Positions 15,108 through 22,064 are shown, numbered from the stretch's first letter. The stretch is 37,771 bases of DNA from a bacterium (GCA_021788195.1 JAJYKY010000003.1:1-37771), one strand, 5' to 3'. Made by a program: numbers and translations. Notes: a model not told the origin generated them from the letters alone.

Positions 15108-15575
15108 ATGACAACATTCGGAACAAACCTCGTTCTTTTAATGCTCGCTCTCACTTTAGCCGCGACCGTAGCTTTGGTAAAAAATTTTCCTGCAGCAAAA
15201 ATTATCCGGCCCCAAATTGTCAGCCCGGTTGAAGTTTACAAGTTTAATCATCAAGATCCCTCGCCGGCACCCTCTAAACCCTCCGGTCCTGCCCCCGATT
15301 CCTCTTCTGATTTCCAGTACCCCGGCAGCCGCGTGGTGGAAAAAAGTGCCGGTTCCACCTCGTACGAAAGCCCGGACGACCCCCAGACAATCACCAACTG
15401 GTACCGCCGCAAAATAGAAAGTTTGGGGATGCCGGCCACCTCGTTTATTCAAACCAACACGAACGGCAATATTCTTAACAAACTAATAGGCGCTAAAGGA
15501 AGCAGTCAGTGGAGTGTGGAAATCACTAAAACCAGCGGGGATCCGGTTGCCAGGATCCGGGTGGTTTCTTCTTAA
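15108..15575 (+). CDS. Secreted/anchored hypothetical protein
   Basis: N-terminal TM, Pro/Ser linker, YPGSRVVEKSAGSTSYESPDDPQTITNWYRRKIESLGM globular domain. Confidence 0.65.
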   Translation: MTTFGTNLVLLMLALTLAATVALVKNFPAAKIIRPQIVSPVEVYKFNHQDPSPAPSKPSGPAPDSSSDFQYPGSRVVEKSAGSTSYESPDDPQTITNWYRRKIESLGMPATSFIQTNTNGNILNKLIGAKGSSQWSVEITKTSGDPVARIRVVSS

Positions 15576-15585
15576 AACTTAAAAT

Positions 15586-16143
15586 ATGAAGCGGAAGCTT
15601 CCGATAGGCTTACTTGTTCTACCCCTTGCGGCGGCGGGCCTGGCGGCCGGATGGTATTTTCGCCCCTTCGGCCGGGTCAATAAAACCGTTGCCTCTCCGG
15701 TCTTAACTTCCGCTCCCGACCCCGGACTTCTTAAAAAAACCCTGATTAACCGCTGGTTTACTTTTCCGATGCGGGACAATAGCGGTTCGGAAGTTACCCA
15801 AATTTCCTACGGGGTGGACTCGGCGGAACTGCGTAACGAAATAATTTTAAACGGCCAGACAGCTACGGCTGCTCCCGGGCGGGTCTTTCTTATTTTTAAT
15901 ATCCGGCTGCGCAACGACTCCAGCCAACCGGTACAGTTGGCTACCGGCGACTACGTTCGGTTAAACACGAATAATGGCCAGGACTGGCTGGCGCCGGAAA
16001 TTAATAACGATCCGGTTATTGTCCAGGCGATTTCGACCAAACTTACCAGGTTAGGTTTTCCGATTAACCAAACCGCGACTGACTTTAAACTGCAGGTCGG
16101 AGAAATCAAGGGCGACAAAACCACTTTTGAGGTAAATTTTTGA
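15586..16143 (+). CDS. DUF4352-like secreted/anchored protein
   Basis: N-terminal TM; FLIFNIRLRNDSSQPVQLATGDYVRLNTNNG...GEIKGDKTTFEVNF. Confidence 0.65.
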   Translation: MKRKLPIGLLVLPLAAAGLAAGWYFRPFGRVNKTVASPVLTSAPDPGLLKKTLINRWFTFPMRDNSGSEVTQISYGVDSAELRNEIILNGQTATAAPGRVFLIFNIRLRNDSSQPVQLATGDYVRLNTNNGQDWLAPEINNDPVIVQAISTKLTRLGFPINQTATDFKLQVGEIKGDKTTFEVNF

Positions 16144-16373: not shown

Positions 16374-17615
16374 ATGATTAATAAGAGAAAAATTGCGGCG
16401 GCCATTTCCACTTTCGCTTTAGCCTTTAATTCCGTCGTTCCCCTTGCCTGGGCCACCACGAACCTGACCGATACCGGTAACGGGGCCGACTCCACAAATA
16501 TTCTTACGCAAAACGTCAACACCACCACCAGTGTGGTGCAAAGCAATACGGCCAACATTACCAATGATATTTCCGTGAATACGGAATCAGGTGATAACAC
16601 GGCCAGTAAGAATACCGGCGGCAACACGACAATTAGCACCGGGGATTCGGTGGCTGTGGTTAACTTATTGACGGCGGCCAATGTCAATAAGGCCTTGGTT
16701 ACCGGTTGTGAAACCTGTAATAGCGGAGACACAAATTTGGCGACCAGCGGAAACGGAGCTGACAGTCAGAACACGACGACCCTGAACTCGGTAAACACGA
16801 ATTCGGTTTTCCAGAATAATGATGCGACGCTGACCAACAACGTCAACGCGCACTTGGAAAGCGGGGATAACACGGCCAGTAAGAATACCGGCGGTACAGC
16901 CGGAGGAAACGTGACTATTATGACTGGCGACTCGCTGGGGCAGGTGAACATTACCAATCGGGCAAACGCGAATTTGGCGCAAATCGGGACAACCGGAGGA
17001 ACTGCCGGCGGGACGATTAATCTGGCAGATACCGGAAACGGAGCTGACAGTAATAATATTGTCACCCTGAACCATAATCTGACCAATATGATCGTTCAAG
17101 GTAATGCGGCCTGGCTTCATAACAACGTGGACATCTATGCCGAGTCGGGAGACAACACGGCCAGTAAGAATACCGGGAATAATACGACGATTGATACCGG
17201 GATGTCGAGCGTCACGACTAACGTCGATAACGCGGTGAACTTTAACAGTGCGGCCGTCGATTGCGGTTGTCTGACGAATCTTAACGCCAAGATAGGCGAA
17301 AACGGTAGCGATAGCCACAGTACCGTTACCTCAAACCTTACGGGCGGATTGGAACTTTTCCAGGGCGGCGGTGAAGAGAGCGGAAACGCACTTCATCTGA
17401 CCAATAACCTCAGTCCATTCGCCCAGTCGGGTTCAAACGGGGCCGGGAAAAATACCGGGCCGGTAGTGGATCCCGTTTATGTCGCGACAGGCAATTCCGG
17501 AAGTTTAACCAACGTCACAAATCGGGCCAACGAGAATCTGTTCGGCACAACCAGTTTGCCGGGTGGGTTTGATTTGGCTTTCAATTTTGATTTTGGAAGC
17601 CTGTTCGGGTTTTAA
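16374..17615 (+). CDS. Secreted repeat protein (four ~80-aa NGADS/ESGDNTASKNTGG/TGDS modules), aromatic C-terminus
   Basis: Signal peptide; repeats TGNGADSxN...ESGDNTASKNTGG...TISTGD; ends FDLAFNFDFGSLFGF; SD-like GGGAGGGGGGTGAAA upstream. Confidence 0.8.
   Translation: MINKRKIAAAISTFALAFNSVVPLAWATTNLTDTGNGADSTNILTQNVNTTTSVVQSNTANITNDISVNTESGDNTASKNTGGNTTISTGDSVAVVNLLTAANVNKALVTGCETCNSGDTNLATSGNGADSQNTTTLNSVNTNSVFQNNDATLTNNVNAHLESGDNTASKNTGGTAGGNVTIMTGDSLGQVNITNRANANLAQIGTTGGTAGGTINLADTGNGADSNNIVTLNHNLTNMIVQGNAAWLHNNVDIYAESGDNTASKNTGNNTTIDTGMSSVTTNVDNAVNFNSAAVDCGCLTNLNAKIGENGSDSHSTVTSNLTGGLELFQGGGEESGNALHLTNNLSPFAQSGSNGAGKNTGPVVDPVYVATGNSGSLTNVTNRANENLFGTTSLPGGFDLAFNFDFGSLFGF
16596..17176 (+). 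repeat. Three identical 23-nt copies of AACACGGCCAGTAAGAATACCGG within coding repeats
   Basis: Copies at 16596-16618, 16869-16891, 17154-17176. Confidence 0.85.
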
Positions 17616-17638
17616 GGACAAGGAGGCTTGTTCTTGGC

Positions 17639-17672
17639 GGGGCGTCTTTCCTGCACTTCGGAAGGGCGCCCC
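17639..17672 (+). other. Strong intercistronic hairpin between the two repeat-protein genes
   Basis: 13-bp stem GGGGCGTCTTTCC / GGAAGGGCGCCCC (two GU pairs), 8-nt loop, no following T-tract. Confidence 0.7.
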
Positions 17673-17721
17673 AAAGGGCCCGGAAACGAAAGGGGAAAAT
17701 AATAAATATTGAACCAGCAAA

Positions 17722-20007
17722 ATGAGAAAAGGTTTAAATAAAATTAAACAAACAGCGGTAATCTTTCTGATTACGGTTATGCTATTCGGTCCGGCCAACT
17801 GGCCCCGATTTAATCGGGACTGGCTGGTTTTAGCGGAGGACGCCTCACCTTCCGCCACCCCGGTGGCCCCGTCTGCCCCGGCGGCCCCGACTGAACCTTC
17901 AACCCCGGCGGCTCCTGCCGCGCCGACAGCTCCGAAAAGCCCGACTTTGTCAGCCCCGCCTCCGGCTACTTTGCCGGCCACCACAACGACGGAAAGTCCG
18001 GCAACCGGGACTGCCAATCCGACCGAAAACAGCGCTACGGCCAAGACTCAAACCGATTCCGGACCAACGACAACCGGAACCTCGGCTCAAACACAAACTA
18101 CAACGGGAACAACCGGATCTTCGGTCCTTTCCCCTGATAGCACGGCTACCGGCGGGGTAATTAACAGCGGCAATGTCGGCAACACCACCGTTAAAACCGG
18201 CTCCGGGCTTTCTTCGGGAACGGTAATCACCACGGCCAACAGCAATATGACAAACGAAGCCAGCGGATCGGGGGCCTTATCTAACGGGGCTAATACCGGC
18301 AACGGTTCGGAGTCAATAAATACGGCTGGGACTACGAGCACCAATCGTGATAATACCGTCCAAACCAATACGGCCAACGTCCAGACAGGATTAAATTTAG
18401 CAACGGTAACGGGAAGCAATATCTCTTCTAAAAATGTCGGCGATACCCAGGTAACTACCGGCGACGCCAACGTTAACGGAACGGTGGTCACGGCGGTGAA
18501 TACTAATGTTGACGAGGCGGTAGTGGCAACCTTTAATGTAGCCGATAACCACACCGGGGACATTATTCTTGCTCCCCAGTCCGCTTCCTCTGTCTGTCCT
18601 TCCGGCTGTGGGGCCGGGTCTGCTGCCGATAGCGGAAACGGGGCGGATTCGACGAATACGGCTTCAGTTTCAGCAATCACTAACCCCAATACCTTTCAGG
18701 CCAACACGGCTGACGTTGGGTCGACGCTGATTTTAACGGCTGATTCCGGAAGCAACCAGACGAATAAAAACACCGGCGGCGACAGCACTATCACTACCGG
18801 TGACGCTAATGTCTCCGGCAGCGCCGTTAACTTTCTCAACAATAATCTTGCCGGCGGGGTGCTGTACAACGTGGTCAATATTTACGGCAACCTGATCGGC
18901 GATATTATCCTGCCTCCTTCGGCGGTGGCGACCGGCTCGGGGCAGACCACCCCGGCCGCGAGCGGGGCAGCCAACATCGGAAACGGAACCGGGAGTCAAA
19001 AGACTGCCGGGGTAACTACGGCGGATAACAGCCGGACTTTTCAAGCTAACGCGGCGGATATCGGCAACAATATGGTTCTTTCGGCTAACACCGGGACCAA
19101 TAATACTTCCGGCAACACGAACGGCGACGCTGCCGTCCAAAGCGGCACCGCCAATGTTCTTGCCAAATCCCTGACGGTAGCTAACACTAATGTGAGCAAC
19201 GGGACTGTCTGGCTGGTTTTGATAAACGAGGCCGGCCATTGGGTAGGGCAAATTTTAGGAGCTCCGGCCGGAGCGACCAGCGCCGGATCGGAAGGGACAA
19301 CTTTATCCGTCGCGCCCAACGGCAATGTTTCGGCAACCAATACCGGAAACGGGGCTGACAGTAATAACCTGGCCCAAAATAACAGTCAGACTAACGCCAC
19401 CGTGTCCCAAAGTAACCTGGCAAAAATTATGAATAAATTGCTTTTGACCGCCAATACGGGCTCTAATATGGCCTCAGATAACACCGGCGGCGATTCGACC
19501 ATTAAAACCGGAGATGCGACGGTTATCGCCAACATCCTTAATTTTGTTAATAACAATATCTCCGCGGACGGCCGGCTGGTGGTAACGGTGATAAACGTCT
19601 TTGGCAGCTGGATCGGGGATTTTGTTCCGCCGGGGCAAACTCCGGACCCAAAACCGGTAGACAACAACCCGGCGGAAAATTCCCAAACGGCAACGACTGA
19701 TTCTTCAACCGGAACTGAGGTGAGCCAGCCGTCGTCAACTAATTCCCAGCAGTCGGAACAAACTTCCGGCGCGCCGGCTGTTTCTGAAAGCAAGAGCCCG
19801 GCTTTCCGGCCGTCTTGGGGAGACGCCCCGATGGTTCCGACTTCAGTTTTGGCTGCGGCTGATTCTGCTGTGGCCCCCGATCTGGGTTTGCTGGTTCCGA
19901 AAAACCCGCGCCTGATAACCGTCAATTTGGCCTGGCTCTTAATTATCCTTCCCGGACTGGTCCTTATAGGAATTACTATTCGGCGCCTTCGAGAATCTCA
20001 TGGCTGA
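17722..20007 (+). CDS. Large surface repeat protein with Pro/Ala/Thr-rich linker and C-terminal TM anchor
   Basis: N-terminal signal; SATPVAPSAPAAPTEPSTPAAP linker; repeats NGADSTN...NTGGDSTITTGDANV; C-terminal AWLLIILPGLVLIGITIRRLRESHG. Confidence 0.8.
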   Translation: MRKGLNKIKQTAVIFLITVMLFGPANWPRFNRDWLVLAEDASPSATPVAPSAPAAPTEPSTPAAPAAPTAPKSPTLSAPPPATLPATTTTESPATGTANPTENSATAKTQTDSGPTTTGTSAQTQTTTGTTGSSVLSPDSTATGGVINSGNVGNTTVKTGSGLSSGTVITTANSNMTNEASGSGALSNGANTGNGSESINTAGTTSTNRDNTVQTNTANVQTGLNLATVTGSNISSKNVGDTQVTTGDANVNGTVVTAVNTNVDEAVVATFNVADNHTGDIILAPQSASSVCPSGCGAGSAADSGNGADSTNTASVSAITNPNTFQANTADVGSTLILTADSGSNQTNKNTGGDSTITTGDANVSGSAVNFLNNNLAGGVLYNVVNIYGNLIGDIILPPSAVATGSGQTTPAASGAANIGNGTGSQKTAGVTTADNSRTFQANAADIGNNMVLSANTGTNNTSGNTNGDAAVQSGTANVLAKSLTVANTNVSNGTVWLVLINEAGHWVGQILGAPAGATSAGSEGTTLSVAPNGNVSATNTGNGADSNNLAQNNSQTNATVSQSNLAKIMNKLLLTANTGSNMASDNTGGDSTIKTGDATVIANILNFVNNNISADGRLVVTVINVFGSWIGDFVPPGQTPDPKPVDNNPAENSQTATTDSSTGTEVSQPSSTNSQQSEQTSGAPAVSESKSPAFRPSWGDAPMVPTSVLAAADSAVAPDLGLLVPKNPRLITVNLAWLLIILPGLVLIGITIRRLRESHG

Positions 20008-20545
20008 AAAAAGTTCCCGCGAAAGCAGCACCTCCAATGTGTTTTATACTCAGTTAATCGGCAACATTGAGGATGACACGATAAAGAAGGTGATTGAAGA
20101 TTTAAATATCGCCAATTCCAAAGAGTATGTTAAAGAAGTCCGGTTGACTCTGGTTACCTACGGCGGCGATCTGCTTTACGCTTTTGCCCTTTATGACCAT
20201 ATCCAGGCTTCGGCCAAGCCGGTGGACATAATTGTCGAAGGCGCCTGTATGTCGGCCGGCGTGATGATTCTGCAGGCGGCCCGGAAAAGGATTTCCCGCC
20301 CTAACACCGTCTTTATGGTTCACCCGAGCATTACTTCTCTTGAGGAAAAAGCCTATCCGGAATTTATTTCCATTGTCGACCAGTATAAGAAAAATCACGA
20401 ACTGTTTATCCGTCTTTCGATTGAAAGATCGGGTATGAGCCGGGAAGAATTTGAAAGAATTTACAACCCCCGCAAGTACCTTACTCCGCAGGAAGCCCTG
20501 TCTTTCGGCAAACACGGCCTGATTGACGAAATTCTGGAAAAATAG
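20000..20545 (+). CDS. ClpP-like serine protease subunit
   Basis: LTLVTYGGDLLYAFALYDHI...VEGACMSAGVMILQAARKRISRPNTVFMVHPSI...RKYLTPQEALSFGKHGLIDEI; Ser and His aligned with ClpP. Confidence 0.85.
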   Translation: MAEKSSRESSTSNVFYTQLIGNIEDDTIKKVIEDLNIANSKEYVKEVRLTLVTYGGDLLYAFALYDHIQASAKPVDIIVEGACMSAGVMILQAARKRISRPNTVFMVHPSITSLEEKAYPEFISIVDQYKKNHELFIRLSIERSGMSREEFERIYNPRKYLTPQEALSFGKHGLIDEILEK

Positions 20546-20820: not shown

Positions 20821-21555
20821 CTAAAAAGAGAGGAGATTGAGCAGGCTGTCGAGGGGGGACTGGGTAACGGAAAGAACCGTTCCGTTTTCAGTAGAGACAT
20901 CGGTGGTGACCGGTCGGGATACGTCAAACAAGCCGAGGAATTTATAGTTTTTCCGGCCTTGGATTTCATAAGCCAATTGGCCTTCCACCGTAGCTACCTC
21001 AATCGGCTGGGAGTTATCGATCACGGTTATAAATTTCTTCCGGATCATGTTTTCCACGGCTTTATCCGGAAGGATGGCGACGGTTTTGGTTCCGGCAGGG
21101 GTGGTCACAATCAAGGCGCCGGTGGTAGCATTAATGCTTAAGGGAAAGTGAATATTGGCCCGGATGTTATTCGACTTAATTTCCGTTTCTCCGGAACTGG
21201 TGGAGATTTTCAGATTCTCCGTTTCCTGTTCGTATTTCGTTTCTGTAGTTCGTTCCTGAACGGTTTCTTTGTTTCTTTCCCGGTTTTTCTCCTGCTCGTG
21301 CAGTTCTTTCGGTTCTGGTTTTTCGGCCTCCCCTACCTGGGTTTGTTGAGAAGTTTCGTCACTGTCTTTAATTGATAGCGGTGGTTCGACAACGCTTGGG
21401 GCAACAGTTGTTTTTACCTGGCTTTCGCCCAGGATCTGGTTTTCGGCTGGCGGGAAAATGGTCTTTCTAAGGCTGGTGCCGAGGATAATGGCCGCGGCAG
21501 CCATAAGAACGACAATTACTAAAATATGGACAAAGCCGCGTGGTTTGGAAGTCAT
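20821..21555 (-). CDS. Membrane-anchored hypothetical protein with charged E/K/Q-rich linker
   Basis: N-terminal TM (ILVIVVLMAAAAIIL), EKNRERNKETVQERTTETKYEQETE linker, C-terminal globular part. Start at MTSKPRGF. Confidence 0.65.
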   Translation of the reverse strand: MTSKPRGFVHILVIVVLMAAAAIILGTSLRKTIFPPAENQILGESQVKTTVAPSVVEPPLSIKDSDETSQQTQVGEAEKPEPKELHEQEKNRERNKETVQERTTETKYEQETENLKISTSSGETEIKSNNIRANIHFPLSINATTGALIVTTPAGTKTVAILPDKAVENMIRKKFITVIDNSQPIEVATVEGQLAYEIQGRKNYKFLGLFDVSRPVTTDVSTENGTVLSVTQSPLDSLLNLLSF

Positions 21556-21562
21556 TAAATCT

Positions 21563-21591
21563 ATCTTAGGGACTATTTTGGGGATTGTCAA
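21563..21591 (-). promoter_or_regulatory. Leaderless-type promoter for the 21555(-) gene
   Basis: Minus strand TTGACA (21591-21586), 17 nt, TAAGAT (21568-21563), 7 nt, ATG. Confidence 0.65.
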
Positions 21592-21641: not shown

Positions 21642-22064
21642 ATGGGAAGTTTTAACTGGTACAAAGTAGTGGCCTTGCTGGCTGTTTTCGGAATCGGTCT
21701 GGCCGTCTATCTGTTTTACGAATATCTGACACCGCCGCACCGGTCGCTCTGCTTTGTTAACTCCACCATTAATTGCGAAGCCTCGACCAAAGGTCCTTTG
21801 GCAAACACTTTGGGAATTCCGACCGCTCTGTATGGTCTGGCTGGCTATATTGTCATACTGCTGTCAGCCCTTAAAAAATGGCCGAAGCTGCTTTTGGGAA
21901 CGGTCACTTTCGGCCTGTTTTTCTGTTTAAGGATCACTTATATCGAGGTCTTTACTCTTCACTCCCTCTGTCCGGTTTGTCTGGCCTGCCAACTGGTAAT
22001 GCTTACTCTTTTTGGTCTATCTATAAAAATCCTCTACGATGCCAAAAATCCCGCCGCGGTTTAA
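21642..22064 (+). CDS. Vitamin K epoxide reductase (VKOR) family protein
   Basis: SLCFVNSTINCEASTKGPLANTLGIPTALYGLAGY...LHSLCPVCLACQ; four TM, two Cys pairs. Confidence 0.9.
   Translation: MGSFNWYKVVALLAVFGIGLAVYLFYEYLTPPHRSLCFVNSTINCEASTKGPLANTLGIPTALYGLAGYIVILLSALKKWPKLLLGTVTFGLFFCLRITYIEVFTLHSLCPVCLACQLVMLTLFGLSIKILYDAKNPAAV

Follow-up and report, generated by a model that had tools for sequence, protein, structure and literature searches.

In Patescibacteria, chiefly in the class Microgenomates, the adjacent genes SHORT and LONG probably form the core of a cassette for the cell surface, whose product would be a coat, a fibre or an adhesin. Both genes lie in a 37,771-nt stretch of bacterial DNA, referred to here as the window. 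The observations on the cassette concern sequence, gene order, conservation and the covariation of sorting motif with sortase, and its function was deduced from protein anatomy and gene neighbourhood. Most surface proteins of Patescibacteria have no annotation, and both the construction of the cell surface and host attachment are poorly understood in these bacteria. The cassette provides a delimited group of genes with wide conservation. It yields a structural prediction and a prediction on enzyme and substrate, in which motif class is matched to sortase subtype, and its analysis removes a misleading link between a protease and the repeat proteins. A near-ubiquitous Microgenomates sortase family has been reported (PMC6744442). 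The module proteins and the cassette appear to be new: no description of either was found in the open-access literature on CPR sortase substrates, Patescibacteria LPXTG and CPR amyloid.

SHORT (P0001; 16374..17615, + strand) encodes a 413-aa secreted module protein without an anchor, which has a Sec-type N-terminus and no second hydrophobic segment. Module alignment and shuffles delimited four modules of about 90 aa (residues 30-120, 121-213, 214-303 and 304-397; 16461..17564, +), which are followed by a 16-aa aromatic-rich C-terminal tail, GFDLAFNFDFGSLFGF (17565..17612, +). The aromatic tail recurs in homologues: the mean aromatic fraction in 50 of them was 0.17 in the last 25 aa versus 0.045 overall. 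LONG (P0002; 17722..20007, +), an ORF with homologues in relatives, encodes a 761-aa module protein with a C-terminal transmembrane (TM) anchor. Behind its signal-like N-terminus lies a Pro/Ala/Thr-rich spacer (about residues 39-140; 17836..18141, +), which was disordered in the AF2 model and whose Pro-rich stretch was kept in the A1 and A4 alignments. The spacer is followed by a half-module and four modules of about 115 aa (18151..19668, +), a second low-complexity spacer rich in Ser/Thr/Gln (residues 650-731) just before the TM segment, and finally an NLAW motif, a TM helix (residues 735-760) and a basic tail (19924..20001, +). The motif NL[AS][WYFL] was found at the TM boundary in 49 of 53 LONG homologues. 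In the window (motif at 19924-19935) and in homologues it stands at the start of the TM segment, which contains a Pro and is followed by the basic tail, so that this C-terminus looks like a specific signal rather than a generic anchor.

The modules of the two proteins are related. Modules 1-3 of SHORT shared 56-58% identity, with alignment scores of 194-230 versus a shuffle maximum of 80, and the LONG modules shared 38-48% identity among themselves. Identity between SHORT and LONG modules was mostly 30-47%, and most of these comparisons scored well over shuffles; the last SHORT module is divergent and showed only marginal similarity, to two LONG modules. The LONG modules are longer owing to an additional conserved NxxGxWxGxIxxP-type segment in each, which SHORT does not have. 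The QxNxA...NTGG columns were invariant or nearly so over the modules and 50 homologues, as in imperfect repeats with conserved Asn/Gln. These data bore out two claims of the earlier note, made from the sequence of the window: that the neighbouring ORFs encode a pair sharing Asn/Thr/Gly/Asp-rich modules, and that the first protein is unanchored and carries an aromatic tail. The note had also given the second protein a Pro/Ala/Thr spacer and a C-terminal TM segment with a basic tail; both are present (AF2 helix 736-760), but the spacer is N-terminal. Its module size of 80-100 aa holds for SHORT but not for LONG.

Neither SHORT nor LONG matched a family in Pfam, NCBIfam, PHROGs or PDB profile searches, and the modules matched no characterised family with another role; the earlier note had said that a match of that kind would overturn its view. 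A PDB profile match of the repeat proteins to 8zvk was rejected as a Pro/Thr low-complexity match, and a weak LONG-profile match at 20821-21555 (15 bits) was judged to be compositional. Cys residues are conserved at 94-98% at C112, C297 and C299 of SHORT and at C292 and C296 of LONG. A VKOR-family gene (PF07884, E=2.4e-21) is located at 21642-22064 of the window, near these Cys-containing surface proteins. The conserved Cys residues suggest oxidative folding, for which the nearby VKOR may be a disulfide-forming link. MdbA/VKOR linkage is known in CPR (PMC6744442).

Gene order was then counted in 62 Microgenomates-type loci, with the testable loci for each feature as denominators. SHORT lay immediately 5' of LONG in 55 of 56 loci. 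Two conserved genes precede the pair: up1 (15108..15575, +), which encodes a small protein with an N-terminal membrane anchor, was found in 40/48 loci, and up2 (15586..16143, +), which encodes a membrane-anchored extracytoplasmic protein, in 48/48; neither had a Pfam match. Downstream, a third module protein was present in 35 of 50 loci, a sortase in 34 of 50 and both in 30 of 50. The typical order was thus up1, up2, SHORT, LONG, the third module protein with its sorting signal, and the sortase. The third protein and the sortase are not obligatory, because about 40% of the testable loci lacked the two together. Many loci, including L060 (5678-6262), L107, L108, L112 and L114, also contain a fourth module protein of about 200 aa, which is encoded on the opposite strand 3' of the sortase and ends in TVTGxxNxLNP. 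A CAP-domain membrane protein was seen near the cassette in the downstream regions of L084, L087, L089 and L058 (PF00188 in L087 and L058). Among the same four loci, RmlA-like and RmlB-like sugar-nucleotide genes, judged by eye, lie near the cassette and possibly serve surface glycosylation.

The downstream sortases belonged to PF04203 (E 1e-17 to 1e-23) and were nearest to class C/D/E sortases, but remained under the subclass cut-offs. The C-terminus of the third protein is a sorting signal, and its motif tracked the sortase subtype. LPx[TS]G proteins were paired with PPGT-type sortases (active site TCxPxG) in 21 cases and GL[SA]x[TA] proteins with SGF-type sortases (active site TC[STA]G[FYP]) in 14, with no crossed case (21/0/0/14). 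When these labels were placed on the LONG tree, 7-8 changes were counted on the best tree and one independent switch on well-supported branches; the pairing may reflect co-inheritance and common descent. The class C-like sortase and the LPxTG-type module protein in most relatives' cassettes would fit covalent pili in the Gram-positive sense, assembled by sortase with SHORT as the shaft. However, SHORT has neither a TM segment nor a sorting signal, LONG ends in NLAW-TM instead of LPxTG, and the window's cassette is without a sortase, so we consider such pili very unlikely. No substrate combining an LPxTG-like motif, a TM segment and a basic tail was detected in the window cluster, and no third module protein in the window's own genome, which is 665 kb in size and 91% complete. 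The window contained no sortase; two are encoded elsewhere in the same genome, of which the one on contig C15 was nearest to the cassette sortases, with up to 51% identity.

From kinship, we infer that the host of the window is a Microgenomates-type Patescibacterium. Relatives of LONG were found in 64 of 187 sampled relatives (E<=1e-3) and in 31 of 380 genomes of the phylum (E<=1e-15). When 84,980 species genomes were scanned, 79 loci were obtained, which came from Patescibacteria (Microgenomates, Parcubacteria, Saccharibacteria and others) or from unnamed MAGs; none of the 79 came from any other named phylum. SHORT-LONG type pairs also occur in Parcubacteria, Andersenbacteria and Saccharibacteria (L156-L172), and the SHORT partner in loci of the Saccharibacteria type has a length of only about 195 aa.

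The gene downstream of LONG, P0003 (20000..20545, +), encodes a 181-aa protein of the ClpP-like serine-protease fold, and we judged it to be outside the cassette. The earlier note had suggested that it was translationally coupled to LONG and possibly linked to its quality control. The overlap on which this view was founded is real in the sequence (...TCTCATGGCTGA), with P0003 starting 8 nt inside LONG on the same strand. The protein matched PF00574 (CLP_protease; E=8.5e-20, 71.8 bits, cut-off 20.2) and kept Ser85 and His108. However, it remained under the curated ClpP subfamily models (best NCBIfam score 56 bits versus a cut-off of 228), and all four family members had Arg (PRKY) at the position of the catalytic Asp of ClpP, taken here as Asp172 in the S. 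aureus protein. A Clp/Hsp100 unfoldase (PF10431) was not matched in the 91% complete genome. P0003 is without a signal peptide, in contrast to the repeat proteins with their Sec-type or signal-like N-termini. The conservation data also argued against coupling. A search for the ordered trio in related loci recovered the SHORT-LONG order, but a ClpP-like gene adjoined the repeats in none of the 62 loci, which is the outcome that the earlier note had said would refute its reading. The close ClpP-like family was present in 4 of 374 genomes of the class, and beside repeats only in this window. In G002, with a complete neighbourhood, the ClpP-like gene and the repeats are on different contigs. In G028 they are also on different contigs, with the ClpP-like gene on a 3.1-kb contig end beside a Wzy_C protein. 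In G120, which has no match to LONG, the ClpP-like gene is beside a SpoU methylase gene. The 8-nt overlap carries no specific meaning, because three other pairs in the window share it (4/27 same-strand neighbour pairs in all) and LONG overlaps or abuts the next gene in 12 of 47 relatives. Coupling of P0003 to LONG, with a role in its quality control or processing, is therefore extremely improbable. The window gene at 20821-21591 (- strand) encodes a membrane-anchored protein with a GFVHIL N-terminus, and its only G002 homologue (G002:C1:454926-455432, 45%) is encoded about 2.3 kb away from the ClpP-like gene of that genome. On this evidence the ClpP-like gene seems to stem from another ancestral block, one without relation to the repeats, and to have come to stand beside LONG through rearrangement.

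Structures were predicted by AF2 from alignments of 50 SHORT and 53 LONG proteins. The SHORT model was all-beta (mean pLDDT 78, pTM 0.65), with low confidence in the aromatic tail, and the LONG model was beta-rich (mean pLDDT 62, module cores 80-95). In both models the strand pattern recurred once per module, and the modules may form an elongated, solenoid-like beta-repeat. Together with the pairing of the genes and the conserved tail and TM architecture, the models favoured the earlier proposal of a secreted, beta-solenoid-like subunit with an anchored partner. When the models were compared with 350,542 PDB chains by Foldseek, FapC and CsgA were the first two matches for both SHORT and LONG, although the matches were weak and not significant (SHORT, E 5.5e-3, probability 0.38, TM up to 0.24; LONG, E 2.2). 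FapC fibrils depend on conserved Asn/Gln within imperfect repeats (PMC12392863), a logic that appears similar to that of the modules. These matches, the imperfect Asn/Gln-rich repeats with QxNxA motifs and the one strand set per module would agree with a functional amyloid that arose by convergence, with SHORT as the fibre subunit (like CsgA/FapC) and LONG as the anchored nucleator (like CsgB/FapB). However, low-complexity Asn-rich beta repeats can draw such fold matches, none of the 50 SHORT and 53 LONG members matched Curlin (PF07012) at E<=0.1, and the modules are far longer than curli repeats. We regard a functional amyloid as possible, if rather unlikely.

Instead of fibres, the cassette could build a paracrystalline layer at the surface or a coat of protein. 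This would also suit a conserved secreted/anchored pair with a long stalk, and periodic envelope layers occur in ultra-small cells (PMC7906910). RsaA, an S-layer protein, was among the very weak fold matches, but matches of this strength are uninformative and S-layer homology was absent; a layer of this kind seems unlikely.

For the surface cassette that we favour, the proteins would be exported through Sec, and the modules of SHORT and LONG would fold into an elongated, solenoid-like beta-repeat structure. SHORT would be the soluble subunit, assembling by module stacking, with the aromatic tail as a possible contact. LONG would present the same modules at the membrane surface, carried by a flexible stalk, as a membrane-held partner or nucleator, and in most relatives the cassette's sortase would attach the third protein to the wall. 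In the window genome the sortase unit is absent from the locus, with a cassette-type sortase surviving on another contig, and the unrelated ClpP-like gene presumably took the downstream position after a rearrangement. A more detailed picture, which we consider doubtful as a whole, is a Patescibacteria-specific extracellular fibre of amyloid-like beta-solenoid SHORT subunits. Membrane-held LONG would serve as their template, and the third paralogue, once processed by sortase, would link the fibre to the wall, with two pairs of signal and sortase that vary together; the fibre would possibly serve host attachment or coat building.

Compared with known systems, P0003 has the fold family, the Ser and the His of ClpP in common, but differs in its short N-terminus, the Arg at the Asp position, the lack of a detected unfoldase in its genome and its rare, patchy occurrence. 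The sortase family fam000526 occurs in nearly all Microgenomates and is enriched in CPR (PMC6744442); it comes from the same bacterial group, and a sortase is likewise the cassette's enzyme. The available part of that paper gives no substrates for fam000526. As in Gram-positive sortase-anchored proteins and pilus clusters, a dedicated sortase adjoins an LPxTG-like module protein in most relatives. Unlike in those clusters, SHORT and LONG carry no LPxTG, the sortase is absent at the window locus, and a second motif class, GL[SA]x[TA], goes with a second sortase subtype. The cassette differs from curli (CsgA/CsgB) and Fap (FapC/FapB) in sequence family, in fold matches below significance, in modules of about 90-115 aa and in the TM anchor of the partner LONG. 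It resembles them in secreted imperfect Asn/Gln-rich beta repeats, in the place of FapC and CsgA at the head of the fold search for both models, and in having a subunit whose paralogue is the putative nucleator.
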